Below are positions 23,536 to 58,674 of a DNA stretch of 64,000 nt, in pieces. A program made the position numbers and the translations under genes. How positions within the stretch are numbered: position 1 is the first letter of the stretch; each line of letters begins with the position of its first letter. The DNA is from Bryoerythrophyllum caledonicum. Its lineage: Eukaryota > Streptophyta > Bryopsida > Pottiales > Pottiaceae. The stretch lies in contig OZ020517.1 of assembly GCA_963971425.1 (NCBI GenBank), forward strand, positions 6,016,501 through 6,080,500. Reading direction: 5' to 3'. Under the pieces are notes generated by a model. It was not told the origin of the DNA. It worked only from the letters and a program-made list of their open reading frames with translations, and searched no databases.

Positions 23536-25179
23536 CTATATACTACGGACCTCGTCCTCGTCATGAGAGACCACCATCAACTTCCAATCATCGTGATGTA
23601 TGTGTGGTTGTTGAGTGGATCCCTTGTACCAATCGTTCGGAACTTGGGGGTATGTTGCCCCCGAACCACTAGCTAGAATACCAGTGGATGTTCTCCGAAA
23701 GTGGAGAGATGGGTTGAGAGGGCCTTTGTCCACCAAAACCTCCAATTCTATCCCTTGTGTGTTGTCGACATCCATCCCAAACACCGCTGCGGGTTCTAAG
23801 TCATCGAGAAGGGAGACAAGGCTAGGTTCCAACTTGGTCTCCGCCTCAATCAATTCACTCTCCATGAAATGCACGGACATAGCTTCATCCGCGCTCAAGG
23901 TGGGGTGTTTCCTCAACCATTCTACAAACTCTCCGGTGGGAACCCACTCATAAAGGCCCGGTCCCATGCTCTTGAAGGGCATCACGTGGGCCTTCGAGGG
24001 TTGGGCTCGATCCACCGCCTTATGGGACACAAACCTCACTCTCTTGGGAGGCTCCTTTGTTAGAACCTCTTGTGATTCAACCTCCGACAAGCCCATGCAA
24101 CCGTGGCATAATCCTAGCCTACTTGGTTGGATATGGACCGTAGTAGGGTTCTCCGGTGGACCATAGGTGATGTTTGATTTCGATCCTCCCCATTCTACCG
24201 TGGCATTGGCAATTCGCAACCAAGGCCTACCTAGTAGCAAGGGGTATGCCTCCTTGTTAGAGTGCATTCGAATGACTTGGAAGGTGAGGAAGTACTCTAT
24301 TCTCTCCGTGGTAACCTTACAACCACTAATTTGGCCTAACGGGGCCTCCGAACTTTGATTAGCCATGTCGATGATGTACGGTGAGGATTCCGTGATGTCT
24401 AGGCCCAACTTCTCCATGGTTGAGAGGGGCATAATGTTCAAACCACTACCACCATCTACTAGTACATTGGGTACCACCTTGTCTACGATTGAGACCTCAA
24501 TTTGAACCGCCCTGACCTCGATATTGGGATGTGCGGATTTAACACGGGCTGCCAATCTAACCCTTGCCTTAGGCCTCCGCTTCACTGGGGTGCCTGACCT
24601 AAGGACCTTCCTCATGGGTGGTGGCACTTCCAATAGTTGAGCAATGGTGATGTCCGCCTTAAGGCGACTCAAATCCGCCCATAAGTCGTAAGGTCCTTCT
24701 CCCACTTGCTCCTCGACACGTGGAAATGTGTTAACCTCGGGATCAGGGATTGGTGGACCCTCCTACGCATCTTGGGGGGTGGATAATGGTGTTCGGGACT
24801 TAGGTGTTCCGTGGGAGGGCCTCAAATTGGCCCGTCGAGTGCCTTCCATCCCCTCTTTGGTGGTCTCGTTTAGGTGAGAGAAGTGAGGTGAATCTTCCTC
24901 CAAAGTCTCACCATCCTCCGGTATGGGTGGAGGAGGACTCGAGTACCTAGGTTCCCGCCGGTTAGACCGAGTTTGGATTGCCAACGCCGGTAACTCACAA
25001 GTTTTTCCTTCCTTGGTTGAGGTAACCTCGTGGAAAACTACATTGAGCTTAGTGAGGGAAGGGATATGTGTGGAAATGACCTTACTTGACTTAGTGGCGT
25101 AGCGAACATCTTGTGGGCCTTGGTTTTGTTGCCCCCCTTGGTTAATAGGGATGTAACCGTCCTTGGTATTAACCCCCAT
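23536..25179 (-). pseudogene. gypsy aspartic protease region
   Basis: Two consecutive open stretches in one frame (24763-25179 and 23536-24705) are separated by a TAG at 24763-24765. The retropepsin motif reads VLVDGGSGLNIMP at about 24441-24480, with the Asp kept and Ser/Thr changed to Gly relative to D(S/T)G. A PLLLGRPWLR block follows (the 'LGRPWL' end of plant RVP_2 proteases). The protein continues into a Pro- and Glu-rich linker. The protease matures gag-pol polyproteins. Frame differs from the upstream NC segment, so a frameshift lies near 25.2 kb. Confidence 0.85.
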
Positions 25180-25742
25180 TGGAGGAGTTTGATTTTGGCG
25201 GTTATTGTTGTAGTCGTAGTAGAGACTAGGTGGTCTAAGCCTCTAAGGGTATTATCAGAGGGAGGGTTACGTGCACCTCTCAAGTGATCTTGAGCTTGTT
25301 GAGGGTAGTTCCCCGATCGAAAAGGCATGGGAATCACCTTGTCCGATCTACGACACACGTGAGTAGGGTGATTACCTCCACAGTTACCACATACTACTCC
25401 ACTTTCGACCCAACACTGCCCCGGTGCGTGTCTCTTGCCACAAGTGTGATGGATTTCAAATCGTGGTCTCGGGGGTCCCCCATAACCTTGACTCGGAGGT
25501 GCATAGCCTTGCGGTCCATAGTTAGTTACCGCCGGTGGTTGATTCCTATGGGGAGGCACATACAGGAGTTGAGTGGCTTGGTGCTGAGGTGCTGCCACTG
25601 TAGTGGTGCAAAAAAGGCTGGTGTGGCCCGGTTGGCCACATTGAGTACACCATAGGCCCGAAGCATGTCTACCGGACTCTATGGGTGGAGGTGTGGGGTT
25701 AGGGACTTGGTTTTTAATCAACAAGGCCATTTGGTCTTGCAT
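25038..25742 (-). pseudogene. gypsy gag, nucleocapsid part with two zinc knuckles
   Basis: The frame holds a CX2CX4HX4C knuckle (CTQCGQPGHTSLFC) and a second, shorter one (CGNCGGNHPTHVC), with a Pro/Gln/Tyr-rich linker between. Such knuckles bind the element's RNA. The frame is continuous with the gag segment 25827-26858 apart from stops at 25827-25829 and near 25771. Confidence 0.85.
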
Positions 25743-25826
25743 GGCCTTGATTTGTTGGGCTAACTGGTCCTAGAAACCTTGTTGGCCTTGGAGAATTTCA
25801 TTCTTTATTTCCTCTTTCCATGTGCC

Positions 25827-28355: not shown

Positions 28356-31218
28356 TGTGAGCCAAATAAACCGCCCCTAACGGGTGGCCTACCTTGAACA
28401 CAAGATCCTAAAATCGGGATACAACCCCGTGCACAATCACCATTGGAACTAACCATACATGCCCCATTCAGATCATAGTGGTTAGATTGTGGTTACTTGA
28501 GATTTTAGTGGACCAATGGGTGGTGATGACTGGATTCAGCCTTAAGTTGATTCCGAACTTCAAGCACACGTAAGTTTTGCTCTAGGACTCTGTTTTCAAC
28601 ATTTTAAAGCTTAGATGAGTGCAGCTCGGCCTTATGGACTCATTTCGACCCTCAAAGACCAATTCCAAAACAAGGTGCGACCCTGACGGCAACGGACAGC
28701 AGACATGCTTCCCTTTTTTTTATCCAAAATTTATATTCCCATTATCTCTTAGGTTATAACCCCGTTATTCATGTTTGTTTTCTATATCCTTATTGTTTTT
28801 TTGTGCTTAACGCAATGGCAGCCTCCAATTACCCGTCCGGATTACCCTTGGACTCACAATCCGGCGACCAGCAGTGCAACAATCAACTTAGATGTTTATT
28901 TAAACCCATGCACCATACATCATGTGTATATCATATACATTCACACAAGGAGTCCTACTCAAACATCCTAGCATACATGCACCCTAGCTGCGTTTACTTA
29001 CTATTTTGTATTAAAACCGGTTGTTTTGTTAGGTTTGATAGAAAAAACCCTAATTTTGTTGGAAATTGGGCAGCGCTTCCGCACGATTGTTGTAACTAAT
29101 AAAAATTAGGGTTCCTTCTGTACATGCTATCAAGAGAATAATGAATCAATTTGGGAGAGGAAGGAGGCTCCCTGATCCCGCTCAATTCACCCTCTACCTT
29201 GTTTGTGTTCGTCCTTGGTTGTTGCTCTTGATCGTGTCTTCCTCCTCTTGTGTTGTGATCGTGTCTTCCTCCTCTTGTGCTATGATCGTGTCTTCCTCCT
29301 CTTGTGCCATTCTCGTGATCGTGTCTTCCTCCTCTTATGTTGTGATCATGTCGTCTTCCTCTTGTGCCGTTCTCGTGATCGTGTCTTCCTCCTCTTGTGT
29401 TGTGATGGTGTCTTCCTCTTCTTGTGCTATGATCGTGTCTTCCTCGTCTTGTGCCGTTCTCATGTCGTCCTCCTCTTGTGCCGTTCTCGTGATCGTGTCT
29501 TCCTCCTCTTGTGTTGTGATCGTGATCGTGACTTCCTCCTCTTGTGTTGTGATCGTGTCTCCCTCCTCTTGTGCCGTTCTCGTGATCCTGTCTTCCTCCT
29601 CTTGTGCTGTGATCGTGATCGTGTCTTCCTCCTCTCGTGTTGTGATCGTGATCGTGTCTTCCTCCTCTCGTGCTGTGATCGTGTCTTCCTCCTCTCGTGC
29701 GGTGATCGTGTCTTCCTCCTCTTCTATTGTGATCGTGTCTCCCTCCTCTCGTGCGGTGATCGTGTCTTCCTCCTCTTGAGCTGTGATCGTTTCTTCCTCC
29801 TCTTGTGCTGTGATCGTGTCTTCCTCCTGTTGTGCAGTGATCGTGTCTTCCTCCTCTCGTGCTGTGATCGTGTCTTCCTCCTCTCGTGCTGTGATCGTGT
29901 CATCCTCCTCTTGTGCCGTTCTCGTGATCGTGTCTTCCTCCTCTTGTATCGTGATCGTAGCCGTGTCGTCCTCCTCTTGTGCTGTGATCGTGATCGTGTC
30001 TTCGTCCTCTTGTGTTGTGATCGTGATCGTGTCTTCCTCCTCTCGTGCTGTGATCGTGTCTTCCTCCTCTCGTGCTGTGATCGTGTCTTCCTCCTCTTGT
30101 GCTGTGATCGTGTCGTCCTCCTCTTGTGCCGTTCTCGTGATCGTGTCTTCCTCCTCTTGTATCGTGATCGTGGCCGTGTCTGCCTCCTCTTGTGCTGTGA
30201 TCGTGATCGTGTCTTCGTCCTCTTGTGCTGTGATTGTGATCGTGTCTTCCTCCTCTTGTACTGTGATCGTGATCGGGTCTTCCTCCTCTTGTGTTATCCC
30301 TATCTCTCTCAAATTCGCTACTGTCTACCTAAACAAAATTCTATTCAACGGCCGGGGCTTCCGGCTCCTCTCCAGTCCACGCTCCTACACTCTCACATTC
30401 CTCTCCTACACAGTCCTTGCATGAATGAGAGTCTCTCTAGGGGGTAACCCCCAAGTTCTTTGCTCCCCTTGTGTTCCCACGGTCGTTCCCTGCCGCCTTT
30501 TCCTTCTTCCATTAACAACCTTCTTCATAAAAAAACCCATTAACCTATGACTACTTAACTCCGTGCCACCCTTGCATTAACAAAAGTGGGTGTCCCACTA
30601 ACCAAGGAATATCTAAATCTCCTACTTTAACTTATGCCACATGGTATGTGCATGATCACCAATAAGTGAGCTATTTTAGCTAATTCAAGGATGCAAAAAA
30701 TCTATTACTCCACCTAGCTTGAATTTCCCTTGCTTGGGATTTAGGACTAATTCACCAAGTGATGGTGAGGGTTTTTTCCACTTCTTTTGGACCCCTTTTT
30801 ACTCATTTCTTTCATGGCTTTTCAAAGCCTCATCTTTTTTTTTTCTTCTCACCATCATTCTTCTTCTTCTTCTAATTTTTTCCGTGGTTTCCTCACCGTG
30901 GCTAATTGCGGTCCCCGACTCGGTAGGAGGTAAATTCTTCTCCACCACTTCCATTTCTACTTCTTTTCTATTGTTTTTTGTTTTCCTAAACTTTTCCTTA
31001 TTTTTTCCTTTCTATTTATTTTTTGGTTAACTTCATAAAATCCTTGGTTGCCACAATGTGGCTCCTATTTAAAGAATTAGCGCATGGAAAGGCTATTTAG
31101 CCATCTTGATCAAAAACCATGAGCTAACCAATGGGATAACCCATTTCTACTACTTGTTAACCTTAACGCACCCGATGCGTGGTCCATTCGTCACCGTGGG
31201 CCGTTTTTGCGGCTCACA
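28356..31218 (-). repeat. 5' LTR (right copy), 2863 bp
   Basis: This matches 18824-21686 base for base as far as I compared, except T at 29419 and A at 30296. It should hold the promoter for the minus-strand transcript. I did not find a convincing TATA box by eye. Confidence 0.97.
29230..30297. repeat. 27-bp-period minisatellite in right LTR
   Basis: The copy of the left-LTR array, with the same unit order. The C-to-T change at 29419 lies within it and the G-to-A change at 30296 at its edge. Confidence 0.95.
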
Positions 31219-38469: not shown

Positions 38470-39600
38470 GAGCAGTTTTGAACAATACACACTACCCACG
38501 CCCATTTTAGACTCACTAATCTTATCCTTCAACATCCAACTCACGAGTGTTGGATCTTTCATCCCCGGTCAGATGCCCATCCAACTCACCAAGTTCCACT
38601 CACCCTTTGACCACAAATGGATAGGAAATGGTATTGCGCACCCCCACAACATAGAAGAAACACAACAAGCAATACATTGTACAAGACTTGCGGCCAAAAA
38701 TGACCCAGAATATAGCTCCACTCTTATAATCACACCAGACAATAACCGGTATCAAAACTTTAACCCACACATAGGCTCAAACTCAGATCCCTATATCATC
38801 GCATTATTTGAAGCAGACTCTGTACCATATGAAGAACCCGCATTACCACATGAACTAAGAAATAAACTAAGAGTTGAGCCCTCCACCATACAAATACTAT
38901 GCATACACCACCAAAATAACAATATTGGCACCATTGAACAAATTTCTACACTCACCTCTACAACAAACAATTATGTCATACACCAACTATATACAAAAAT
39001 AGCTCCATCTACACCTTCCCTATTCCCAATAAACCACAACAAAAAAAATGGACAAAACTTAAACACGCAAACACAACACCAAATTACCTCACCGCACCGC
39101 CTCGCCCCCCCCACATATTCAAATCACATTTCATTAGAATTTTGACCTTGCCCATAGCTACTACAGAGATGGTTCCTTCAAAAAATCAACAAGTCAGCCT
39201 GGGGCATTGGCATAGAGAAAAAGTTGGATATGGCATATACAACTCAACCAAAGAATTAAAAATATCCAAAAGACTACATAGACTTAAAAATATTCTTAGA
39301 GAAAAAATGATGGCCCTACATAAGACCCTCCAAATTATCACTACACAATACACTACTGAACCCGCATACATCTTAAATGACTGTATTAACATAATATATC
39401 TATTAAACACACAAATAACACACCCTACCCTCCACAATAGCCACTTCGACCAAGCCATGTTAACATCTATGGTTCAAATGCTTTAAAATTGCACACAGAT
39501 AGAAATCCTTCATAAAGTCAGAGCACATGTCAATATTGATGATTTTGGACTCACCAAAAACATGCTTTATCAAATTTTGTACTGGACAATACATGGGGAG
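38470..39600 (+). pseudogene. Truncated second copy of the dual-endonuclease retroelement
   Basis: The translation from about 38490 (EQYTLPTPILDSLILSFNIQ) aligns collinearly with 48.8-49.9 kb of the large element (LAHYSLPKILLDHIITSFNI). Shared blocks are HSPF, GIAHPHN, LIITPDNN, YEEP and ILCIHH in the unassigned domain. RNase H pieces follow (YYRDGS, VGYGIYN, ILNDC, and KVRAHVNID after the stop near 39.48 kb). About 25 residues of the RDKIFGS…KWKG segment are deleted. Two open stretches (38429-39145 and 39142-39486) cover it. It lacks EN, RT and the C-terminal endonuclease. Confidence 0.85.
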
Positions 39601-39739
39601 TGCCCGCAAACAACTCTTCTAGGGAATAAAATAATTTCCATCCATAATGTTTGAAGAGTCCCACGCAGCAATAAGACTTGGATTACGGTAGCTGGATTTG
39701 ACCTTGGCTTCAGACTTACGCCGGAACTGAAGCGAATCG

Positions 39740-40175: not shown

Positions 40176-41940
40176 TATTAGACATGTAAGGGTAAAGTGG
40201 AGGGATCAATTACCATAATGTCATAGTATATTCCAACCAAAATAGAATAGATCAACACTTTATTCACACCTTCAGAGAACAAAGTTCTCATGGAAGTGTG
40301 CCACCAAAACAACTTCTGGATTCTGAATAGATGCTTAGCCATGTTAACCCTTAAAGGTTTGAGAAGCCATATTTGGATTGCAATATATTCTACGCAATGG
40401 TCAGTTTCGTACATAATTCATTCAAAATGGGGCTTGTACAAAAAATTTGGGAAATTTAAGAGATTTGTCTAGACAATACTCATGTAATACCAAGGTGATA
40501 CTCGAATAATGTATAGGTGATACCTATATAATACATATATTATATCCATGTAATGACTAGGTCATATCCATTGTGTCCAAAGCACTGTGTCCATGAAAAA
40601 TAATTCATTTGACAAGTAGGTAATATTTTATTTGTATATCACATACAAGCTGTAAGAATTGATGTATACACTAGTTACAAAAGTTTGTATTTGTGTAGAG
40701 CCCGATACAATAACACATGACATTTCAAATTTAGATCATTGCAGCACCTACTTCATGCTTGAGAAGTTCCGAAATGGTCATGTATTTTGCATATGTGGTG
40801 TCATATTTGAACATGGATAAGGTTCAAATATTGGAATGACCTCCAAATAAAGATGTTACTTGAAGAATCTTGAATCCAAAGATGTATGTCTTGCTATACT
40901 TTAATACATTTTTGTATTCTAAGAGTAATATACATGACCATATATATGGTCTGATTTGGACCATTTAAGGGTTAACTTCTACATTGTCAGCTTTCCCATG
41001 GCACATTGTTGGAGCCAATAGAATGAACAACACGCATACAACTAAGCTGTTGAGGATATGATACCCTCAACACTCATATCATTCAAAATGCTTGTAACAT
41101 TCATAATAAACATACTACTTATAATATTCGTGATTTCTCATAATACCTTCACTATTTCAAAATATTCTCATCCTCATAACGTTTATGATGCACAATGTGT
41201 TACTCCTTGTGATCATCATAATCATCAAAATTAACCTGTATGACGGTCCTCAGATGATACCCTCAAAATCTGTGAATGAAATCGTCCACGAGATGCAAGA
41301 ATGGTTGAATATTGATGAATATCTCCAAAACATAAATTAATCTATCATAACATAAAAAATTGACATGGTCTAGCACCAAGTGTCACATACTATGACAAAT
41401 ACCCTACGGAATCAAATTAATAGATATGAATACCATCATTTACTTGTTTTGCATTGGATTTGATCCTCACTATTCCTTTTGGAACAAGTTGTGAGCAAGG
41501 AACTTTTACCTTTCACTAGCAAGGAACTTCTTCAATGTTCATATTTTCAAATTTTCAAATTAATAATAATAATAATAATATCTTTAATATTATATTAAAT
41601 ACATTAATTTTTTGACACTGTGCTCTCCCACTACAACACTTTTGAGAATGTTTGGATCATCTAGCAAAAGGCGTGTTGCAGCTCCTGGATTAACCTTTTA
41701 CGATGCAAAGGGGTGTGTGGCTTTTCCTCTCATTTTTGAAATTGCATTTTGCTGCACCTTTTGGGGTTAACAGCTACTGTATCAATAGTTATCTACTTTG
41801 GTTGGACTTAGAAAGATAGGAACCATGTCTTGAAAATGCAACTTTGTAAATTTTATCATTATCTATAACAATCTTACCATCAATAAAGAAGTGGGGAGAT
41901 TAAGATAATTTTTTTTGTCACTTCTATATCTATCTTTACA
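40176..41940. other. Intergenic DNA without recognised genes
   Basis: An AATAAT microsatellite lies near 41560-41580. TGATACC/ATAATAC-type repeats occur at 40490-40560. No gene-like frame. Confidence 0.5.
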
Positions 41941-41950
41941 ACAAGCACCA

Positions 41951-42025
41951 TGGCCTTGGTGTAGTGGTTTGGGTCATGGCACACTAGTGAGGTGGTTGTG
42001 AGTTCAAGTCCTATTGTGGGGGTGG
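41951..42025 (+). mobile_element. tRNA-like SINE head
   Basis: An A-box-like TGGTGTAGTGG (41958 onward) and a B-box GAGTTCAAGTCC at 42000-42011 have tRNA-like spacing and resemble heads of plant SINEs. No cloverleaf with a proper anticodon stem was evident, so a working tRNA is unlikely. It abuts the 5' side of the large retroelement, and I see no SINE tail. Confidence 0.45.
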
Positions 42026-42111
42026 TATGCACTACCTCAACCACGGTTGGAAAACTGACATGGCAAAACAACCTGCAGACATGTTACAAGGAAATTCTGA
42101 GTTTGTACAGG

Positions 42112-43095
42112 AAACAAATCGTAGCAGGCAGGAAAAGAGACGGGAGCAGGGAAGATGGTGATACTAAGTTACAAAATATAGACAGATTACTAAGTAATAG
42201 GCTTGAGGAGAAATTGAGCAGATGCAGAGGCATTGTTAGCAGAATATGGTTGAAGGGAGATGTAGAGGATAGAGTATATAGGAGGAAGACAATATATAGG
42301 CAAAAAACAAAAAAGATATGTAATAAAAAGATAATACAAATTACCAATGATATTATACAAAAGATTATCAAAAAATACAAAGAAAGTGACAAAAATAGTG
42401 ACAAAAAATACAAAGAAAATGTCAAAAATCTGACTGAGATGAAGAAAATAATAAGTTCAATTGTTAAACAAAATACATCCAAAAGGTATGTCATCAAAAA
42501 AAAATATACTCAAAAACAAAAATCAAGCAACAAACTCCAAAATTACAAAATAAAAGAGAGGACAAACACAAAAAGTAAGAAATTTTTTAAACCTAGTAAA
42601 GAAGTAAAAAATACAAAGAGAAATAAAAAATTTAGAACTTACATGAAATACATATGGAAAACAAAGATTAGAAATGATTCAAAACAAATAAATACTAAGA
42701 AGAATATTAAAAAACAAAGGAAAACTACAAGAGAAGATATAACTAACAAAGGAAATAAAATAAAACTAAAGACAGGAAATAAACAAAGAAAGTAAATAAA
42801 ACAAAAATAAGAAAAGGTAATAAAATAAAAACAAATAAAAAAATAAATGAAAAGGATAAAATTAATCAAAGGAATAGATTAAATATACAATCAAAAAACA
42901 AAAGTATCAAAACCAAAATAAAAAATAAAAGGAATAAGAGAAAAGATGGAATAGAATAAATAATAAAAGGAAAGAGAAAATAAGTATCATAACACATATA
43001 ACAAAAAAGGAAACAATAATAATGAAAACAATAATGGAAATTTTGTAATAAAGATACATAAGGGTAGAAGGGAATCTAAACCCAAAAACCATCAA
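42112..43095 (+). pseudogene. Lys-rich ORF1-like region
   Basis: Very A-rich sequence encodes mostly Lys, Asn, Ile and Arg (open from about 41992 to 42795, then broken). It is in the same frame as the large ORF that starts at 43114. By position it could be a basic RNA-binding ORF1 equivalent. Composition alone could also arise from an A-rich leader, so function is inference. The reverse strand gives false Phe/Leu/Ile 'membrane' frames. Confidence 0.45.
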
Positions 43096-43113
43096 AAGAC
43101 AAGGAATATTAAA

Positions 43114-45705
43114 ATGGCTAAAAATAGGAAATTCAAGGAGAGTAAAAAGAGATATAATAAATTAAATAGGAAGAAGATAGATACTTATAAAATTTCAAAG
43201 GTTTCAAATAGAGCAAGTAATATTAAAAATAAAAGAACAAAACCGGAGAGGATATGTAAGAAGAAAATAAAGGGTAAGGTAGAAAACCATTATCATAAGA
43301 ATACAAATAATAAGAACATAGCAACAAACAACATTACTAAAAATAGAGTATGCTTCCTAAGAAAATTAAAGTTAAGGGATGGAAAATTAACCAAATTAGT
43401 AATGAGAAACACAAGTTCTAGATTAAAAATGAGTAGAAAAGATACTAAAAACAAAACAATACATACTAAAAATAGAAGTTGGAATACAAATTATAGGGAT
43501 AAAAAGAAAGTCAATAGTAAAATTAAACTTGATATGTATAAAGATGAGAAGAGTTTGCGATTAAAGAGTAGAAATTTGTTGATAATGTGTAGAAGAAAAA
43601 TTGAAGCCGGGATGTCCGTCTGGCTGGCCGGCTGCTCCCCAAAGGAGCCAAAAATAGACTTACTAAAAATAGAAATTCTAATGAAAGTAAGAGTATATAC
43701 GAATCTTTCTGAAATAAATATCAATTTGTTCTTAGAAATCATATTTTTAGACAAAATATTTTTAGGAACAAATCTTTCAGAAAACTCATTATTTCAACCT
43801 ACTTACTTTTTGACCAAAACAAAATGTTATAAAAAATCTATTTTTAACACTACCTCAATATATGTATCTAAGACAACCATCAATACATATTATTACAAAT
43901 ATAATGATATACATCATCTGATCAAATGTGGGGATATTGAAACCAACCCTGGCCCTATGCCAGATGTGTTTGAAACCCACCCATCAGCTCATAAACGTAG
44001 ATACAAAACATACTTCATTTCTTGTACAATCAAACTCCAACCTGAGTATCAACACCTTGCAAAAAGTTTCTCCCCCATTCTAAAACAAGATCACCAATAC
44101 CACCAAATTACTATTAGAGACTTCCCACACTTAAACACATATCTCAACCGAATAAGAAATTACCCTTTAGGACAAATATTATTTGCACTAACAACAACCA
44201 TCAGCCCTAATATAAATTCATGTGAACACCAACTAATAAATTTTCCCGAACCGGATTGGACCGCCAAGCTATTAAACAAGATGTGTACACTACCAAACCC
44301 ACCCGAAAGGCATATTCACATTGAACACCCATATACAAAATCTATTACAAATAATCAAAAAATAATAAACCCCTCATCTAGTATACACAAAGAATTATAT
44401 GATTTCATACACCAGACACAAAATGCACCATCAATACAAATGCTAAAAATTAAATTTCCTTTTCTACCAAACAATCTTCTCGAAGAAACACTAAGAATTT
44501 ATGAACCCCTAGATGAGTACACACACCCCCCTCCATTGACCCATATCTCATCACCATTTCAATCCAATACACATAACAATAGCCATCAAACTAATATTGT
44601 TACATGGAATGCAGCTACACTAAATACTGCATTACCTAGTTTAGAAGAACTTGCCTTACATACAAACCCGACCATTATCACCATCCAAGAAACTAAACTA
44701 ACTGCCACCAAGTCAATAAAGTACATACAAAATTTATTCCCAGATTATAAACTAATATTTAACAATACTCACGCACTAACTAGATGCATTCAACAACGGA
44801 TCCCTTACACACCCGCTAGAGGAGGACTACTTACACTAATAAATCACAAATATGCATACCCAGGAAATATCACCAAAATAGCAACCCCTCTAAAAATCTC
44901 ACCCTACTTACAAATTATACACATACAAAACCATCCACTACAACCATGGCTATTAATACACCTATATATGCCCTCACATCATGAAGATATTGAACTAATC
45001 CCAATAATACAACAAACTATTACAACACAAATTAACACATATTCTAACCACACTCTCATACTATGTGGAGACTTTAGTAGAGACATAGCTTTAATAGGAC
45101 GACAAAATGAACATAATACCACACCACCACAAGAAGAAGATTTTGCATGGAAAACATATATTGATAGCTTAGCACTAGCATATGTCCCAACAAATACAAA
45201 CTACTCTAGACAAGGTGGATACAACTATACACATACAAGTCTAATAGACGACTTTTATATCAAAACACAAAATCACAATCTATACACATGTACCACAATT
45301 ACAGAAGCCAATCTTAACTCTGACCATGCACCCATTTCACTACACATACCCCAAAACAAACTTATTGCACGCCACCCCACACCACCTACCTCGAGACCAA
45401 TTAGAATATTCAACCCTATACCGCAAGATAATTTAGATAAATTCAACACAAATTTTTATGAAAACAACACTTTACAATTAAATGACCTAGACACCATATT
45501 ATCATACGAACATCTAAATCCCGATCAATGGAAACTAGCATGCTCCCATATGGACGAAATCACTCAAAAAATATCAGAAGCTATAGAAAATACGTGTAGC
45601 ACACCACCCATACCTACACTCAATGATAGAATCTCAAAACAAGGAGGATACTTACCACGCAAAATCCAAAAACATGGAAAAAACATGTTGCAACATACCA
45701 CCTAA
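43114..45705 (+). CDS. Retroelement ORF: basic region, 2A, APE endonuclease
   Basis: An open frame of 863 residues. Residues 1-190 are strongly basic (Lys/Asn/Arg-rich). Residues 272-281 are the 2A motif CGDIETNPGP, which would release the N-terminal part and restart at Pro281. Residues about 495-750 are an APE/EEP-type endonuclease with Asn499 (TWNAATL), Glu526 (QETKL), a LYMPS block, Asp653 (GDFSRD) and SDH at 736-738. These are the catalytic landmarks of target-primed retrotransposons. The frame ends at 45703-45705, where the downstream RT continues in another frame, so the stop reflects a frameshift in this copy. The true start could be further upstream, since the frame is shared with the 41992-42795 stretch. 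Confidence 0.85.
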   Translation: MAKNRKFKESKKRYNKLNRKKIDTYKISKVSNRASNIKNKRTKPERICKKKIKGKVENHYHKNTNNKNIATNNITKNRVCFLRKLKLRDGKLTKLVMRNTSSRLKMSRKDTKNKTIHTKNRSWNTNYRDKKKVNSKIKLDMYKDEKSLRLKSRNLLIMCRRKIEAGMSVWLAGCSPKEPKIDLLKIEILMKVRVYTNLSEININLFLEIIFLDKIFLGTNLSENSLFQPTYFLTKTKCYKKSIFNTTSIYVSKTTINTYYYKYNDIHHLIKCGDIETNPGPMPDVFETHPSAHKRRYKTYFISCTIKLQPEYQHLAKSFSPILKQDHQYHQITIRDFPHLNTYLNRIRNYPLGQILFALTTTISPNINSCEHQLINFPEPDWTAKLLNKMCTLPNPPERHIHIEHPYTKSITNNQKIINPSSSIHKELYDFIHQTQNAPSIQMLKIKFPFLPNNLLEETLRIYEPLDEYTHPPPLTHISSPFQSNTHNNSHQTNIVTWNAATLNTALPSLEELALHTNPTIITIQETKLTATKSIKYIQNLFPDYKLIFNNTHALTRCIQQRIPYTPARGGLLTLINHKYAYPGNITKIATPLKISPYLQIIHIQNHPLQPWLLIHLYMPSHHEDIELIPIIQQTITTQINTYSNHTLILCGDFSRDIALIGRQNEHNTTPPQEEDFAWKTYIDSLALAYVPTNTNYSRQGGYNYTHTSLIDDFYIKTQNHNLYTCTTITEANLNSDHAPISLHIPQNKLIARHPTPPTSRPIRIFNPIPQDNLDKFNTNFYENNTLQLNDLDTILSYEHLNPDQWKLACSHMDEITQKISEAIENTCSTPPIPTLNDRISKQGGYLPRKIQKHGKNMLQHTT
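43933..43956 (+). other. 2A ribosome-skipping motif (D-I-E-T-N-P-G-P)
   Basis: Codons GAT ATT GAA ACC AAC CCT GGC CCT match the DxExNPGP consensus exactly, preceded by Ile-Lys-Cys-Gly. Separation would occur between Gly280 and Pro281 of the ORF at 43114. 2A motifs are known from several non-LTR retrotransposons of protists and animals, including trypanosome L1Tc/ingi. Here it sits between the basic region and the endonuclease, so it could yield two products from one ORF. Confidence 0.92.
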
Positions 45706-45708
45706 TTA

Positions 45709-47678
45709 GAAAAGCAATATATATCACAAAAAACACACCACAATGGCGATCACATCCAATTATCAATGAATTAAACAAACACACCCATGTCAAGATCCCA
45801 CCACCCCCAAATGACGACTTACTTATTGAACCATGGATAAATGATCTAGCTACACTAGCCAAGACTGCAAACAAAATAGCAAGAAAAATCACGTCAAAAT
45901 ACACAAAAGAATGTATAATAAAGGCTATATCCAAATACAGACAATTATATGAAATAAGCCCAAAAAAGATAAACAATAAAGTATTCAAAAACCAAGAAAC
46001 ACCACCATTAGACTGCATCACAGATCGCAATAATAACATACTAACGAGCACGCAAGACATTGCCAATGAAATTTACATACAACAATCAATTATTAATAAA
46101 CCCACTGTTCCAACATGTTATTACTTACCAGACAACCCTCCTGAATGCACATACGGAGTTAGACAATATCCATGGCATGACCTAGAAGGCTTTGTAATAG
46201 ATGAAAGAGGTCATCTACAAACTCCGCTACATACATACTTTGATCAAGAAACTTTTGACTTATGCCTAAAAAACCTTGCAAACAACAAAACCCCAGGACC
46301 GGACAGAATACCCAACTCTATCCTGAAGAACATGCCTACAAACTTCCACCGCATCTTATTCCTATTCTTTAAACATTGCTATAAACAAAAACAAATTCCG
46401 GCATCATGGAAAATAAGCCTCACAATACTACTATTCAAAAAAGGTGACCCATCTCAACTACCAAATCACAGACCTATAGCGCTAGCCAACACTATATACA
46501 AATTTTTTACAAGTACACTAACATCAATACTCTCAACATACAGAGAAAAACACCAAATTCTACATGACAACCAAGAAGGGTTCCGTGCCGAAAGATGCAC
46601 ATCTAGACAATTACAATTACTAATAGCGGCTTTAGAAGATGCACAACTAACAACGCAAGATATATATTTACTCTATATAGATTTCAAAAATGCATTTGGC
46701 TCCATTGACCACGCCCGTCTACTAGCCATTATGAAAGATTTAGGATACCCTGAGGACGCGGTAATGCTAGTAGGAGATATCTACTCACAGTCTAACACCA
46801 TTTTTACTGGTGAATACTTTGGCCAAACCCAAAAAATATCCATACAAAGAAGCACAATACAAGGAGATACACTTAGCCCATATCTCTTTCTTGTTTTTCT
46901 AGAACCACTTTTACGATGGTTACAAAGAGGAAAATACGGCTATACCTTGGGAACTTCAAAAACAACAATAAATACAGCAGCATACGCAGATGATCTTGCA
47001 ATCATAACAAACAAACTTCCCTCAATAAAAAATCAACTTAATAAAATGGACAAATTTTGCAAATGGGCTGGAATGGACCTAAGAATTCCGAAATGTGCAT
47101 ATACTGGATGCCCAAACAAATCCAAAACAAATCAAATAGTCTTCAAAGCACTAATACAAGTTGCAAATATATCATACAGAAACCAACCGATTTCCATACT
47201 ACATCAAAATGAGCCATATGTATATCTAGGAATACAACTAGTTCCATCATTGAATTGGAAAATACAGACACACACAACAACCACCAAACTAAATAAACAA
47301 TGCAACCAATTAGTAAATTGTCCAGCTACTATTAAATAAAAAGTCAGCATGGTAGACACAATTATAAGAGCAGGCATTGCATATAGTTTTTACGCGGTAC
47401 CATACTCACTACCTACTATTAAAAAACTAAACAAAAAAATTATAGCAATACAAAAGAAAATTTGTGGGCTACCGAATTGCACTCCCAACGTAATTACCCA
47501 ATTGCCACATGATATGTTTGGCATAGAAGCATTCTCATTAAAGAACGCATACCTAAGGTGCATAGGTGAACAACTACGCAATGCTCTTAATGACACAAGA
47601 AAATTGGGAATAATCTATAGAGGTCTTACACATTTTATACTTGCTAAATACGGCGGAGCACAAGAGATTCCCAGATAA
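45709..47678 (+). pseudogene. Retroelement reverse transcriptase
   Basis: Frame 3 carries a non-LTR RT: NNKTPGPDRIPNSIL, then WKISLTILLFKKGDP and NHRPIALANTIYK, YIDFKNAFGSIDH (Asp at 46680-46682), IQGDTLSPYLFLVFLEPLLR and TAAYADDLAIIT (YADD at 46983-46994). A thumb region follows. The upstream half (45.71-46.33 kb) joins the endonuclease after a one-step frame change near 45.70 kb. A TAA at 47337-47339 interrupts the thumb, then the same frame runs to 47678. The catalytic triad is intact. The 'QGDTLSP' and 'EPLLRWL' blocks resemble R2/NeSL/Dualen-type RTs more than plant L1. Confidence 0.9.
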
Positions 47679-49420
47679 ACAATATGATTGCTTAAGATCA
47701 CCTACAACAAGAACACTCTATCTTATCAAACGATGTGGAGGCGCTCACTTGAGAAGTACAACAAGAAACTTTCCACTTGAAGCCACACCTCTTGAACAAA
47801 TGTGGCTAAACCTATCATCATAAATATTACCACACTTCACCCCTAAAGCAAAATCACAAACTCTTCAACAAATTATTGCTTCAAAACATACATGAGATAA
47901 AACATTTAACACTCCCAAATGGTCTTAATCCAATGTCACATGATGAATTCAAAATATACTACAGTACACCAACTAAAGTAATCAAACAAGCCCTTAACAT
48001 AGCTGAACAACTTTTTTGCTATCCTACATGCAACCCACAATGCCAAAACCCATGCATTGAGCACCCTACACCACGAACTCTAAAACATGAATATAGAACA
48101 CACGACCATCATATTTTACCCAACCTTGGTACAAATCCTATACACCTCCCACCACCACCACATCCCCCTTATTTGAAACCACCAATTAAAATCACCAATA
48201 ACCCAACTACATTTCCCATACATTCAATATTAGACCACAAAGAAAACAAAACAAAAGACAAATACAAAATTCCAAAAACATACCACACCTACCTATGCCA
48301 ATGGAAATTACCAAACGATATTACATATAATAAATGGATACCACAAAGTGACCTCTTCCCACTAAACATACCAATAACTATACAACACAACACCTCCTTG
48401 CTTGCTCAATATTACACCACAAAACAACATACACATTATAGAAATTTAATAAATACCCATTTTGTAGAAGAACAAACCCGAGATACAAGATACATACTTC
48501 CAACCATGCCCCTCCCCCTTATACATATCAATGTAAATGAATGCAATCCCTCAAAAGATATCAACACCAACCAAAACACCATACAAATAAAAGATGAAAC
48601 GGCACACTTTTACGATGAAACAGGCAAGCACCTCATGACTATACCTATAACCAGACTAAAATGGCTATGGAACCAATACTCCAAAGCAAAAGATTCACCA
48701 CACGGATTAACACCTCCTACACAACCATTTGAAACAGAAATAATATGGCTATACCAAAGATACAAATATAGAATTCCAAAAACCGATCCACTTAAACTTG
48801 CACATTACTCTTTGCCAAAAATATTACTTGACCACATCATAACATCTTTCAATATAACTCACACGTATTTTTCCTCAACAGTAACCTGCTCCACTGAAAT
48901 AGATAAGTTTTACTCACCATTTAAAAGAGACAAAATTTTTGGATCTATGGGACAAGCATTTTCTTACAAATGGAAAGGAATAGGCTATGCTCACCCACAT
49001 AACAAAATAGATACCTAGAAAGCTATACACTGGGCTAGACTTGCAGTAGAAAACAATCCAAACACCATTACAATAATAACTACTCCCGACAACAACTGGT
49101 ACCATAACCTAACACCACATAAAGGCCCCTATCCAGACACACATGTTGTTACATATGTACCAGCAAATACAATAACATATGAAGAACCAACAAAACCACC
49201 CGAATTTACTAAAACACAAATAGAACCTTCTGCTCTTCACATATTATGTGTACACCATAAAAACACCAGTGTTGAAAATAATGAACAAATCACCGCCCTA
49301 ACTACAATTTTTAACAAACTCCAAATCCCTCAACCATACATACAAATTGCCCCGCCAACACAACTAAATACACAAGTTAACAAAAGCAAAGAATGGAACA
49401 CACTCACATATCCAACAGAC
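47641..49420 (+). pseudogene. Retroelement region between RT and RNase H, unassigned domain
   Basis: After a frame change near 47.66 kb comes a spacer with a Cys cluster (CNPQCQNPC). A conserved block follows at 48.78-49.21 kb: FYSPFKRDKIFGSMGQAF, KWKGIGYAHPHN, a TAG at 49016-49018, then KAIHWARLA, TPDNNWYHN and TYEEP. The same block recurs in the copy at 38.5-38.9 kb. The spacing W-G…PHN…A…PD-x-x-W faintly recalls phage-type N6-adenine methyltransferases (W.G..NPPY…W), as found in DIRS elements, but the NPPY residues are not present. I do not recognise the domain. Open stretch 47876-49018. Confidence 0.7.
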
Positions 49421-49489
49421 AACTTAGTCACAAACTACAATACAACAACAATTCCTAACTTCATAAATGATAAACAATCCAAATTCTTA

Positions 49490-49920
49490 TCACAATACTG
49501 CTACTATACTGATGGCTCATTTCTCCCACCACAAGATATGGGCGATCATTGGACTCGTGAAACTGCAGGATATGGAATATACAATCAATCCAAAATATAG
49601 AACTAGCCATAAGACTCCCAGGTTTACAAAACATATTTAGAGCTGAAATAATGGCAATATATACAACCCTACAAATTATTACCTCCAAATACCCTAATGA
49701 ACCTGCACACATTTTCACAGACTGTTTAAATGGCCCGTACAATATCTAAACACAACTCAAACACCCCACCCAACATAATAACCACCCGGACAAAACCATT
49801 CTACAAGATATAGTGCAACAAAGAACACAACCTACATCATTGTACAAAGTACGAGCTCACGCAAATATAGATGGCAACAAAAAAGCTGACGAACTAGCCA
49901 AACAAGGTAGAGACAAAGAT
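49490..49920 (+). pseudogene. Retroelement RNase H
   Basis: The four acidic positions are visible: Asp in YTDGS (49511-49513), Glu in RAEIMAI (49645-49647), Asp in FTDC (49720-49722) and Asp in HANIDGNKKADELA (49870-49872). This domain removes the RNA template after first-strand synthesis. A frameshift near 49.60 kb and a stop at 49747-49749 break it. RNase H is a known part of Dualen/RandI, I-clade and related elements. Confidence 0.88.
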
Positions 49921-50952
49921 TACCACAATGCAGCCCTACCACATGAATTTGCACATTCTACACCATATTACTTTCAGAGAGACTGGTGGCATTCTATGGA
50001 CGAAATTCCAGATAAAGGCCCTATAAGATTCCTTGAAAAGCATATTATTAAATATGACAAAGAACATAACTTAACAGACATTGCAACAAATTTCCCCAAT
50101 ATAAATAAATGGATAAGTAACACTGACATTGACGATAAACTATCCAATGAATTTTGGACTAATAAACAGGTAACAGACTCCCAAAATACATGCCTCCTAA
50201 AACTAAGACATGGTCAATATATGGGCAATGCTAGAAAACAACTATTTTTTGGCAGAGAATTATATCCATCAATCACATGCTCAATATGCAACTCCCAAGA
50301 TCCAGACACATGGTTACATGTACTGCTAAAATGCAAGCAACACCATATACATGCGCTTAGAACAAAAAGACACAGTAAAGCAATTTGGGAAATTAAAAAA
50401 CTATTAGTCTCATCAAAAAATTCAAGATGTTATACCCTCATGAATGCGGGCACATGTAATGATAAACCACCAGAGAATACAGTCCCTCCATGGCTGTTAC
50501 CATGTACATGCGTACAACAAAGATGCCAATGTAATGCACGACTAAAACCAGACCTACTATGCATAAAAGGACTACCCTACCAATCAAACCCCCCAACATC
50601 TCCCAACATCAATTTAAAGGTACAATTTATAGAATTCACATACTGTAATGACAGATTCTCACTAGATACCATTGAGAGAAAGATAGAAAAATACCAACCT
50701 CTCATCAACGATATTATCAACAAAGGTTGGATATTTGAACCACTAATAGTAATTACAGCAGGTGCCAGAGCATCTACATACATCCCTCCTATGAAAATCC
50801 TAAAAACCAAACTCAAAATACCAAAGAAACTTATAAAAAATACATTTAGAGAAATAAACACAATTGCTATACACCATGCCATGTCCATAATATTACACAA
50901 AAGAAAAATAGAAAGCGGAGAGCCACTACCAACAGGCGTACAACCACCATAA
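49813..50952 (+). CDS. Retroelement C-terminus: RNase H end, CCHC finger, restriction-like endonuclease
   Basis: A 379-codon open stretch. It starts in the RNase H tail. A CX2CX9HX4C finger (CSICNSQDPDTWLH, then VLLKC; about 50278-50334) is followed by RHSKAIWEI, matching the CCHC plus 'RH' arrangement that precedes the restriction-like endonuclease of R2-type elements. KPDLLC (Lys-Pro-Asp at 50545-50553) and IEFTYC (Glu at 50632-50634) fit the PD…(D/E) core, and a later K-x-x-K-Y (RKIEKY) fits the downstream conserved Lys/Tyr. The Asp-Glu spacing of 26 residues is longer than in R2. In R2-like elements this enzyme cleaves the target site. The frame ends at TAA 50950-50952. Confidence 0.78.
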   Translation: MQQRTQPTSLYKVRAHANIDGNKKADELAKQGRDKDYHNAALPHEFAHSTPYYFQRDWWHSMDEIPDKGPIRFLEKHIIKYDKEHNLTDIATNFPNINKWISNTDIDDKLSNEFWTNKQVTDSQNTCLLKLRHGQYMGNARKQLFFGRELYPSITCSICNSQDPDTWLHVLLKCKQHHIHALRTKRHSKAIWEIKKLLVSSKNSRCYTLMNAGTCNDKPPENTVPPWLLPCTCVQQRCQCNARLKPDLLCIKGLPYQSNPPTSPNINLKVQFIEFTYCNDRFSLDTIERKIEKYQPLINDIINKGWIFEPLIVITAGARASTYIPPMKILKTKLKIPKKLIKNTFREINTIAIHHAMSIILHKRKIESGEPLPTGVQPP

Positions 50953-51398
50953 ATCCAACTATTCAAAAAAGTAGTGAAATATAACCACCTTTATTTATAA
51001 TAGTAACCTTGTCACAATATAAGGCCCAAGTTGTTGGAATTTCCTGCTCCTCTAGTTCGATAGCGCCGGATGATCGTAACGATGCTCAAACGAGAACAAC
51101 GGGAACCAAACCCAGACCACCGCTACAACACAACCATGTATTTTCCAAACAACCTGGCAATGTCAACAATGTGACAACCAACGAAACCAACCTTCTACTT
51201 TTATACAACAGAATACACCCCAAACAATCACTTTACAGTGTATTGGTTCTTGGTTTCTGTTATACAGTGTCCACCCTGAGAGGGGTTAGTAGTCCTATAC
51301 CACTGTTGTTATGTCCTGTGGGCATATCATCAAGGGTAGGTCGAACGGACACTATATTCACGCCAACCCATAGGGGTCTGGTGTTCTTCTTCTTCTTC
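50953..51398 (+). other. Probable 3' UTR and (TTC)5 tail of the retroelement
   Basis: No coding evidence. The motif GGTCGAACGGACACTATATT (51333 onward) and GGGGTCTGGTGTTC lead into (TTC)5 at 51384-51398. Similar motifs followed by TTC repeats lie at 1866-2193 and 51610-51680, as expected for 3' ends of one family. Whether this 3' end belongs to the coding part is inference. Confidence 0.5.
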
Positions 51399-51690
51399 GG
51401 GGGTAGTGCCTACCACCATAGTCCACCCAATTATGGTGCGGGTCCCAAGGCCTCGTTGTATGGGGACCCACAAAGCCCTCGGGGGCAGATGACATGTCGG
51501 TTGTCTCTAAGGCAATTAGTGTAGGGAAGCACTTAGTGTAGTAAAGTGTTTATCTTCGAGAGGGGGGAGTAGTTTCATTATACTAGCCTATGCTCCGTGC
51601 CCATATGCTTAGTGAAGAGAATGAACAAACACTATTTTCATATGGATCACCTTTGGAGACCGATGTTCTTCTTCGTCGCAACAAATCGTG
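51399..51690 (+). repeat. Second, diverged copy of the 3'-end motif
   Basis: The stretch 51550-51678 (GAGAGGGGGGAGTAGTTTCA, then AACAAACACTATTTTCAT and GGAGACCGATGTTCTTCTTC) aligns with 51270-51398. It could be a tandem 3' end or another truncated insertion. Confidence 0.5.
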
Positions 51691-51699
51691 AGTAAAGAT

Positions 51700-52188
51700 T
51701 TATAGCAATAAAATATATGTTGAATCCTCTTGAGTAAACATTTTGAGAGTTCTTATATTTGTTCTGGATGAAGTCCAAAACTCTCCACTGAATATTATGA
51801 CCCAATTCTATGGGTTCGAGTTGATAAAATACCTCACCATCAACACCAAAACTGAGCACATTGGCCGCTTTCTAATCTCTATGCAAAGTACCCCTCAATG
51901 CAAATATCTCATCTCATATGCAATTTGGCCAATGATTGGAAACATACAACATTCATGATAGTTGATGTCATACATCATAAAGGGTGGGTGTTGGTTACCA
52001 TGGTGTTGCATTCTCACATCCAAGAGTTTCCACAAATCTCCCCACATTTGAACCATCTCAAATGCGAATCTTCCATCTTTCAACAACCTCCCACACACGA
52101 TTGGATTACACTCGAAAACATCCGTTTCATCATTGTATAGGGCAATTGTAATTTTGCGAAGGAAGGCCAAGGGCCACTGCTTTTGCAA
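51700..52188 (-). pseudogene. Protein-kinase pseudogene fragment (TKL-like)
   Basis: The minus-strand reading contains MWGDLWKLLDVRMQHHGNQ, then PPF, IGQIAYEMRYLH and, after a one-base frame change near 51895, LHRD-stop-KAANVL. This is the αD-αE region and catalytic loop (HRDLKAANVL) of a Ser/Thr kinase, with a TAG in place of the Leu after HRD. No DFG motif follows in a clear way, and the N-lobe with the catalytic Lys is absent. There are no introns in the matched part. A processed or transposon-captured fragment is plausible. Confidence 0.6.
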
Positions 52189-57185: not shown

Positions 57186-58674
57186 AACTCAATTTTTCAT
57201 TTTTCAGGCATGGAGCCCGACGTTCGGGCACCACGGCCGCGAGCCTTGCAGCAAGTATCAACACTACAAACCCGCAAGGACGTTGTCGCCTGGATGATCG
57301 AGGACGAATCATTGCATGGCAGCCTCGGCCTGCACGCACGCACCGTACGCAAGTTCCCTGAGCACTTCAGAGGCAAACACTCCACCAACCTCGTCCGTGC
57401 AAGCCGCTGGTGGGCCCAACGAGATTCTCTTGCGCCACCAGTTGAGCCCGCAACGAACCAAGCCATGTCATTCACCCGCAGCAATTTGGGCAAACAAAAG
57501 CGCTCTCTCAACAAAGCCAGAACCGGACGAGGGCGAAAGAGGTCAACATGGGTCCTTTGGATTTACCCCTTGTTGCTACAGTCTTTTGAAGTATACATGC
57601 GTTCCGGGGTAACTTGCCCTCTCAATACTTTTAGCATTAAACTCTCCTTATACCGCACACTCTCGCGACCCCAAAGATGATAGACCTATTAAAGATAAAA
57701 TAACACACTCATGGATTCAACATTTTATGGATGCAAATAACATAGTTTTGCTTTCACAACGTGGTCGGTTAACATGTAGCCCCAAAAAAGAAGCTCAAAT
57801 AGAAATGAATGTTGCATCCGGTGAATTTAATGAGAATCTTGTTGAAAATTTAGATGAGACACATTTCACCATAAATATGGACAATGGTAGAACATTGGGG
57901 TTTCGTGGAGATTGCTCGGTAAAATATGCTGATGTGGTTGCGGGAGGAGAATCAATGACAATGGTTGTTAGAATTTCGGGCGGACGTAGGGCAATGATAG
58001 AATCCCCCATGATTATATTTAGCAATGAAAATAGAAATTACCCTATCCGAGGATTAGAAGATTCTATCCCCGGTGTGTGTTACCGTACGGGCCTGAAAGG
58101 ATGGATGGACCAATCCATCTTTCCTCAATACTTTGAGGAACCACGAGCATTTCAACCCGACATTTATAACCGTACAAAAATAGTGTGGGTTGATAATTGT
58201 TCGGGCCATAATCTAACCCCTAGATTAGCGGAGGTATTACACCAAAAAAAAACCGTTTTGAGATATTTACCTCCATGTGCCACTCACCTATGTCAACCCG
58301 CCGATAATTTTATTATTTCAAAGATTAAAGATGCGTGGACAAGGCGATGGGAAATGAAGAAATTGGAGCTCATTCAAAGTGATGCATGGCAAAATATTCC
58401 GCGCGGTGACAACCAATGGTCCGGTAAACTTCTTAATCCCGGTAAAAGATTTTTTCTCCAATTGGCGGCCGATTCCATTGAAGAAGTTAATCAGTTATTA
58501 GATTGTGATAATATGTCTTATGCTCGTAAATCTATGATTGGATGTGGTTTAGCTTTAGGGCTAGATGGCACGTGGAATACTAATCAATTATTTCCATACC
58601 TTCAAGAGATTGTTGCAAAATATCCTCAATATTTTGAAGGATTAGAAGTGCCTCATTTGCCTACGGCAAATTAA
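57186..58674 (+). pseudogene. pogo/Tigger-like DDE transposase, one frameshift
   Basis: The N-terminal part (57129-57680, frame 3) has a basic, HTH-like stretch (TRKDVVAWMIEDESLHGSLG) and GRGRKRSTWV. A frame change near 57.62-57.66 kb leads into the open 315-codon segment from the ATG at 57727. That segment contains the catalytic core: Asp43 in NLDETHF, Asp156 in VWVDNCSGHN and Asp193 in CQPADNF (36 residues between the last two), plus DNGRTLGFRGD and YPIRG blocks. This is the DDE_1 fold that excises and inserts the element at TA. The frame starts again upstream of 57727 in the same phase, so that ATG is not the native start. The stop TAA (58672-58674) is part of the TTAA target of the nested element. 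Confidence 0.85.

Follow-up and report, generated by a model that had tools for sequence, protein, structure and literature searches.

A decayed copy of a probable giant dual-endonuclease LINE lineage in Bryoerythrophyllum caledonicum

The inserted LINE copy and its host SINE

The window, the whole stretch of 64,000 nucleotides that was analysed, carries on its forward strand a decayed, 5'-truncated non-LTR retrotransposon (LINE) copy that we assigned to a family named A (Table 1). All of the motifs named in the original prediction (2A, APE, RT, RNase H, CCHC and KPD) were found in the window, and in that order; the ORF1 remnant and the PCIF1-like and chromo-like domains (about 48263-49102) had been missed. 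Of the extent first proposed, 42060..51398, the end was correct and the start was not, as the truncated copy begins at 42028. Among the 20 family A copies compared, nine have their 3' terminus at 51390-51400, and seven share sequence upstream of 42028.

Decay of the window copy is evident in its coding path, which is split into seven open pieces, and only RVT_1 passes the Pfam curated cut-off when these pieces are searched. The APE motif reads GDFS in the window copy versus GDFN in 16 of the 20 family A copies. The longest ORF of a nearby fragment of a diverged relative had no match in a Pfam search.

The LINE lies inside a SINE with a target duplication of ~9 bp, and the same point of the SINE is uninterrupted in two other SINE copies. 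ARAGORN reported no tRNA in the one SINE copy submitted to it, and an Rfam search of 41800-51800 returned nothing at E <= 0.1. At the 3' end, a predicted RNA structure has 96.5% of 455 cells paired and double changes at 11 of its 35 pairs, a value reached by none of 500 shuffles, whereas the control measure of further pair types fell below all 500 shuffles, which is a contrary result.

Table 1. Features of the LINE copy and its surroundings in the window
Feature	Position	Strand	Basis and landmarks
Fragment of diverged relative (pieces of PCIF1-like, RNase H, stretch before CCHC)	38474..39646	+	42-50% aa
Host SINE, left part	41951..42027	+	tRNA-like A/B boxes by eye
5' target-site duplication copy GGGGGTGGT	42018..42026	+	by eye; one mismatch to 3' copy
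Decayed, 5'-truncated LINE copy, family A	42028..51398	+	3' end shared by 9 of 20 copies; empty-site SINEs
Final ORF1 codons and stop, remainder lost by truncation	42029..42058	+	frame by eye from adjoining L029, L012
Basic K/N-rich region, ORF2 frame, upstream of 2A, interrupted in window copy	42060..43911	+	open in L014
2A-type sequence HHLIKCGDIETNPGP	43912..43956	+	motif read
APE-type endonuclease	44596..45336	+	Pfam below cut-off in window copy, above in L027, L038; IVTWNA 44596-44613, QETKL 44683-44700, CGDFSRD 45064-45084, SDH 45313-45336
Reverse transcriptase	46446..47237	+	RVT_1 2.8e-27; YADD 46977-47000
Chromo-like domain core	48263..48358	+	PF00385 below cut-off; hhalign
PCIF1-like domain	48713..49102	+	PF12237 4.2e-6, below cut-off in window copy; FGSMG 48938-48961, HPHN replacing NPPF 48986-49006, stop 49016-49018
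RNase H, D-E-D-H-D retained, frame broken in window copy	49502..49899	+	Pfam in copies; motif reading (residues 49502-49899)
CCHC zinc-finger-like motif	50278..50334	+	motif reading; aligns with R2 motif
R2-type restriction-like endonuclease (RLE) to C-terminus (RH, KPD, E, KY, GAR)	50365..50949	+	hhalign to R2; motifs; KPD 50539-50562, QFIEF 50623-50652
Structured 3' end and (TTC)n tail	51270..51398	+	covariation
3' target-site duplication copy GGGGGTAGT	51399..51407	+	by eye
Host SINE, right part	51399..51675	+	tail 51536-51676 homologous to LINE 3' end

Related copies, open frames and selection

Six of the seven window pieces were traced through the 20 family A copies for order and frame. 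The order was kept in all 20, and adjacent pieces were in a common frame in 16/20, 18/19, 16/18, 14/14 and 13/13 of the copies reaching the five boundaries. Overlapping natural open frames give the plan basic region - 2A - APE - RT - chromo-like - PCIF1-like - RNase H - CCHC - R2-type RLE: a 1432-aa ORF in L027 covers 2A-APE-RT, one of 1352 aa in L021 covers RT-PCIF1-like-RNase H, and one of 975 aa in L015 runs from the PCIF1-like domain through RNase H and CCHC to the RLE. When the proteins that the copies naturally encode are searched, APE, RVT_1, RNase H and PCIF1 all exceed the Pfam curated cut-offs. A sister family in the same genome, C, has the whole plan in a single uninterrupted frame of 3087 codons, read in one copy. 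The single collinear path of the original prediction is therefore borne out by the constant order in family A and the single frame in family C.

The frame was exactly 3087 codons long at 33 of 42 equal-scoring hits and at least that long at 35; two more hits, which likewise show 50.6 bits but differ in E-value and lie outside the 42, had frames of 508 and 594. The RNA of family C would be at least 13.1 kb long. The presence of open-frame relatives in the same genome suggests recent activity. Directly after the family C copy L038 we observed a family A-like stretch (90% over 527 bp); nesting is thus present here. Two pattern scans of viral contigs gave no relative; one matched nothing and the only stretch found by the other was unrelated.

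The fuller copies carry an ORF1 upstream, the versions in families A and C being homologous (39%). The number of open codons before the 2A motif ranges from 28 to about 604-608 across the 15 motif-bearing copies. The longest of these stretches, in L014, was used for a shuffle test, and chance as the origin of the long low-complexity frame was rejected (0 of 300 dinucleotide shuffles as long). The 2A predicted between the basic region and the endonuclease is indeed there, and D[IV]E.NPGP occurs in an open frame in 15 of the 20 family A copies, in the window and in family C (L038). The first ATG of the family C ORF2 frame appears only at codon 477, which counts against a simple translation start.

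APE, RNase H, RLE and the PCIF1-like domain are under purifying selection (dN/dS 0.08-0.15). Between L046 and L038 the values were 0.146 for the PCIF1-like domain, 0.079 for RNase H and 0.077 for CCHC plus RLE; between L027 of family A and L038 of family C they were 0.106 for APE and 0.056 for RT, with dS near or past saturation in such A-C comparisons. Several A comparisons were saturated, and L046 versus L015 gave no score for CCHC plus RLE. The linker between the PCIF1-like domain and RNase H was weakly constrained in one comparison (0.56 over 70 codons). We conclude that the window element is very probably a copy of a giant LINE lineage with two endonucleases.

Competing readings of the domains

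The original prediction had likened the element to Dualen/RandI, and in domain plan the comparison is apt: APE and RLE together, and also RNase H, which characterize that clade, are present in the window lineage. A cysteine protease is reportedly mentioned in the 2005 Dualen abstract; our search for a peptidase in the ORF1 and ORF2 parts gave no Pfam match above cut-off. The window lineage could be no more than a Dualen/RandI family, one that Repbase may already list from a related alga and whose extra domains merely lack annotation, a reading we regard as possible though on balance doubtful. The core enzymes are shared, Dualen encoding both APE and RLE and RNase H being reported from Dualen/RandI (PMC4640811, excerpt), and RandI elements of green algae have 3' repeats, among them (ATT)n and (CTATTT)n, that the (TTC)n tail resembles (PMC3747384, excerpt). 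However, excerpts of the open-licence PMC literature make no mention of 2A, PCIF1-like or chromo-like domains for Dualen. LINE/Dualen is also reported from cryptophytes (PMC12747079, excerpt), and nothing in the open-licence PMC literature searched pairs Dualen with a streptophyte. The evidence does not establish the undescribed lineage that the original prediction thought possible. For the plant-type, probably photosynthetic host, the assembly itself offers contigs with plastid rbcL, recognised by eye.

The PCIF1-like domain passes the PF12237 cut-off in L021, L015, L038 and L046. With hhalign it aligned to PCIF1 over 105 columns (E 3.9e-5) with a score of 37.8, the best shuffle scoring 21.9, a comparison that is partly circular as Pfam had pointed to PCIF1; in a PDB search with a narrower profile, PCIF1 was the sole match at E <= 10 (E 0.26). 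The NPPF catalytic motif is absent and is faced by HPHN in the PCIF1 alignment; [AY][HY]PH[NT] was observed in 14 of the 20 family A copies (the other six stop short of the site), in the window and in L038. It is unlikely that the domain is an active adenine-N6 methyltransferase working on element RNA or DNA with the altered HPHN motif. FGS-G and its neighbouring residues are invariant or nearly so in 10 aligned rows, and a dN/dS of 0.11-0.15 also speaks for activity, but the motif replaced is the one that is key to PCIF1 catalysis (PMC11345611, excerpt). Neither the open-licence PMC papers listed in searches on this subject nor excerpts of PMC11345611 and PMC8868631 report a PCIF1-derived domain in a LINE.

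The neighbouring domain is named chromo-like, PF00385 having matched it under the Pfam cut-off (E 0.0088 and 0.11). Its hhalign score to CBX4/Pc was 26.2 (best of 200 shuffles, 15.1), again partly circular since the target had been found with the same profile, and a PDB search with the middle profile gave only weak chromodomain matches.

As anticipated, PF03372 and PF00075 are above cut-off in copies. For APE, PF03372 scored 29.0 bits in L038 (cut-off 24.5) and PF14529 scored 29.4 bits in L027 (cut-off 27.4); for RNase H, PF00075 scored 54.2 bits in an L038 piece and 50.6 in L046. These L038 scores were reached only with pieces searched singly; the intact 3001-aa protein gave neither domain at E <= 1.

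We consider it very improbable that the lineage is an APE-only, L1/I-like element with a C-terminal zinc-finger domain merely resembling the R2 endonuclease. The C-terminal part had no match among Pfam models, and PDB sequence searches with C-terminal profiles gave no R2. In hhalign, however, it aligned to R2 over 198 columns with a score of 33.0 (18.6 for the best of 100 shuffles) after two of the 11 rows of the alignment had been dropped as too short. The profile comparisons have moderate hhalign probabilities (37.7 and 70.6) and are built on shallow alignments. Against R2, CCHC, RHN, KPD and GAR are in register, whereas in QFIEF the acidic residue does not line up with the Asp of R2 VVD, which counts against the RLE reading. 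The proposed KPD...E restriction-like core is thus supported by the R2 profile, with its acidic residue out of register, and the C-terminal dN/dS given above also argues against an APE-only element.

The RT points the same way. The nearest solved chains to the RT of L021 are those of R2, and the family C RT scored 117-120 bits to R2, 99 to human L1 and 71 to the genome's own L1, the latter two scoring 150 bits to each other. In an RT tree of eight rows the element was on its own branch (support 93/100), apart from R2 and not firmly with L1, a pair that was itself unresolved; the group II intron row had a very long branch and was 40% filled, which makes the rooting uninformative. A firm grouping with L1, which the original prediction had named as evidence against itself, was therefore not seen.

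That an APE-RT element is followed by an unrelated, RLE-bearing element can be dismissed, in spite of the broken frames of the window copy and the nesting next to L038, as order and frames are shared among the family A copies, a single flanking duplication encloses the whole window element with no junction setting off the C-terminal part, and the uninterrupted frame refutes this reading for family C.

A possible mechanism and its relation to known systems

In the dual-endonuclease lineage, 2A would separate the enzyme from a low-complexity N-terminal region during translation, and the enzyme would bind its own RNA at the structured 3' end. Of the two endonucleases, APE and RLE, one may nick the first strand and prime reverse transcription, the other cutting the second strand and RNase H removing the RNA. 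The chromo-like domain may bias the choice of target chromatin. Because NPPF is lacking, the PCIF1-like domain is likely to bind RNA, perhaps at the capped 5' end, rather than methylate it. SINEs with the related 3' tail could use the LINE machinery.

More speculatively, the retrotransposon may have remade PCIF1 as a domain that reads capped 5' ends of RNA without catalysis, with both RNA ends in one complex and the two endonucleases dividing strand cutting; we hold this combination to be improbable as it stands. With the 5' cap held by the PCIF1-like domain and the 3' structure by the RT, full-length insertions would be favoured, which would explain why long frames are so common (35 of the 42 equal-scoring hits).

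Dualen has both APE and RLE, and its position has been read as evidence for an origin of APE elements by replacement of the RLE (PMC4640811, excerpt). In a lineage that has recent copies with long frames, and in which both endonucleases are under selection, the question of why two are kept becomes testable. A PCIF1-derived domain in a LINE would link retrotransposition to mRNA-cap biology, and studies of mechanism have a rich system in the 2A motif and in a structured 3' end that a SINE has in common with the LINE.

Compared with the cap-adenosine methyltransferase PCIF1/CAPAM, the LINE domain has the FGS-G region in common, but carries HPHN in place of NPPF and is embedded in a LINE polyprotein. 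With R2 and other RLE elements the window lineage shares the CCHC-RHN-KPD-GAR C-terminal part and its best RT scores; it departs from that clade in having an APE above cut-off. To our knowledge R2 has neither APE nor RNase H, and it targets rDNA, whereas the one insertion of the window lineage examined is in a SINE.

The 2A-bearing LINEs of trypanosomes and sea urchins are said, in the title of a 2013 paper, to be APE-type, and we know of no RLE in them, unlike the window lineage. The D(V/I)ExNPGP motif is common to both (PMC4981915, excerpt). Dualen/RandI combines APE, RLE, RT and RNase H in one element with simple-repeat 3' tails, as does the window lineage, which by analogy of plan may work in a similar way, and which adds to this set the 2A, PCIF1-like and chromo-like domains.

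Collinear copies and the sister family

We searched the 437 Mb eukaryotic assembly containing the window with a 601-base stretch of the window RT and obtained 40 scored matches, including the window itself, from 2387 first-look candidates; the other 39 were 94–98% identical to the window. Twenty of these family A copies were fetched. The window copy is broken into seven open pieces, of which six were traced through the fetched set. The order of these six was conserved in all 20 copies, and adjacent pieces had a common frame in 16/20, 18/19, 16/18, 14/14 and 13/13 of the copies reaching the respective boundaries. The fetched stretches of L010, L011, L013, L014, L026 and L027 end before the PCIF1 motif and later parts, and those of L023 and L025 reach 50737 and 49243, respectively. 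Stops and frameshifts are scattered and different in each copy. Overlapping natural open frames of three copies (L027, L021 and L015; see table) cover the full path without any repair. Conserved order, common frames and overlapping natural frames thus bear out the single collinear path of the original prediction.

A genome search with Pfam PF12237 gave 150 scored matches, all above the cut-off, from 2614 candidates. Among these, 42 were alike (E-value 4.0e-11, score 50.6, profile range 8–146), an equality of score that does not itself prove identity; one was read (L038, with its upstream stretch L047). The open frame is exactly 3087 codons in 33 of the 42 and at least 3087 in 35. L038 belongs to a sister family, family C. 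In this copy ORF1 stays open over 836 codons, and the distance from the ORF1 frame to the TTC tail is 13.1 kb or more. Where the two families could be matched, identity to family A is 56–64%, and the ORF2 domains come in like order. The first ATG of the 3087-codon frame (L047:3643 to L038) is codon 477. All eight further PF12237 loci (L039–L046) matched the L038 protein. Family C is intact, and the proposed search for intact copies was answered by the 3087-codon frame of the copy read, with the full domain order. A stretch adjoining L038's family C copy downstream is 90% identical to the family A K-rich region, and the elements are therefore nested.

The motif D[IV]E.NPGP is present in 15/20 family A copies, the window and L038, and Met directly follows it in each of them. 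Upstream of 2A the reading frame stays open over 608 codons in L014, more than in any other of the 15 copies, and over 743 in family C; neither length was reached in 300 dinucleotide shuffles. At codon 640 of the L038 frame, ∼100 codons before the intact 2A, GGDINTRPN looks like a decayed second 2A copy. 2A is already known from non-LTR retrotransposons (PMC4981915).

Features of the window, of family A copies and of locus L038 (window coordinates unless stated)
Feature	Location	Length	Remarks
L027 natural open frame		1432 aa	basic region, 2A, APE, RT
L021 natural open frame		1352 aa	RT through RNase H
L015 natural open frame		975 aa	PCIF1-like through C-terminus
Family A-like K-rich stretch	L038:9372-9898		directly 3' of family C copy
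Fragment of another relative	38474-39646		
Host SINE	41951-42027 and 51399-51675		tRNA-like head, A/B boxes by eye
SINE tail	51536-51676		aligns with LINE 3' end
Direct repeats	19564-20915 and 29096-30447	1.3 kb	near-identical; 27-bp tandem arrays
Pol-like ORFs	21832-25769 (-)		flanked by the direct repeats
Transposase-like open frames	136-1725 (-) and 57613-58674 (+)		resemble DNA-transposon transposases, by eye
Microsatellite	1919-2193		perfect (TTC)92; repeat unit of the LINE tail

Enzyme domains and selection

APE, RT, RNase H and PCIF1 scored above the Pfam curated cut-offs in natural proteins of the copies, confirming the first three as originally called. Pfam and PDB sequence searches with the C-terminal part gave no match. 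A profile built from 9 of the 11 rows of the C-terminal alignment matched three R2 sequences over 198 columns (score 33.0, E 3.4e-4; 100 column-shuffled controls scored ≤18.6 and a reversed one 15.9), with CCHC, RHN, KPD and GAR in register and the acidic residue of QFIEF out of register with R2 VVD. The predicted second endonuclease has profile support as an R2-type enzyme across the span from CCHC to GAR. The KPD Asp of PDB chain 8gh6 is Ala in 8ibw, which fits a mutated catalytic residue.

An alignment of the PCIF1-like domain to a pair of PCIF1 sequences covered 105 columns and scored 37.8 (E 3.9e-5; ≤21.9 in 100 shuffles), HPHN lying opposite the catalytic NPPF. A chromo-like segment, below the Pfam cut-off, scored 26.2 (best of 200 shuffles ≤15.1).

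Between L046 and L038, dN/dS was 0.146 for the PCIF1-like domain, 0.079 for RNase H, 0.077 for CCHC plus RLE and 0.112 overall; for L046 and L042 the three domains gave 0.114, 0.048 and 0.09, and a 70-codon linker 0.564. For L027 (family A) and L038 (family C), APE gave 0.106 and RT 0.056, with dS >2. Judging from the domain values, the PCIF1-like domain and each of the two endonucleases appear to be under selection.

The 3' end and insertion site

The 3' end lies at 51390-51400, within or beside a TTC run, in 9/20 copies. The last ∼135 nt have a conserved fold: in a 13-sequence alignment, made up of one SINE tail and the ends of six family A elements and six from other families, pairing holds in 96.5% of 455 cells and 11 of 35 pairs show double changes. 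These values were reached by 0/500 shuffles, and sliding the partners drops pairing to 38–47%; one further measure of the count was not above shuffles.

The window LINE is inserted in a SINE (40 scored matches including itself, from 2368 candidates), two other copies of which are continuous across the LINE junction. Once joined, the window flanks are longer than these copies by ∼11 bases, a surplus interpreted as duplication of GGGGGTRGT, the two repeats differing at one position. As the SINE's own tail aligns with the LINE 3' end, the SINEs may borrow the LINE machinery.

Elsewhere in the window, the direct repeats are perhaps LTRs of an LTR retrotransposon. Assembly contigs C821 and C282 hold an additional rbcL, unlike the first, and a cox1 frame interrupted by in-frame TGA codons; a second organism in the assembly is possible.

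Proposed mechanism and relation to known elements

This is a long two-ORF element with several amplified families, conserved enzymes, a 3' structure, a TTC tail and a target duplication. We propose that 2A would separate the N-terminal part and that target-primed reverse transcription would begin at the 3' structure, with strand cutting divided between the two endonucleases and the RNA strand removed by RNase H. The chromo-like part would act as a guide, and the PCIF1-like part would bind RNA without methylating it.

Among solved structures, the best relatives of the family C RT were R2 (108.8 bits) and then human L1 (77.9). An 8-row tree puts the families on a branch of their own, with support of 93/100, and separates them from R2 (100/100), which argues against placement inside R2. 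On the L1 side of the proposed phylogeny, this tree, with a poor outgroup and the L1 pair itself unresolved, gave no firm grouping.

RNase H retains D-E-D-H-D and not the Arg form, which PMC4640811 describes for the archaeal-like RNase H found in plant L1 and in Utopia. The same paper gives Dualen/RandI the combination of APE, RLE and RNase H common to the present element, so the likeness first drawn to that clade was apt and the element is of the Dualen/RandI kind in plan. The 2A, PCIF1-like and chromo-like domains, for which the available parts of the literature searched hold no description in such elements, are additions to this plan.
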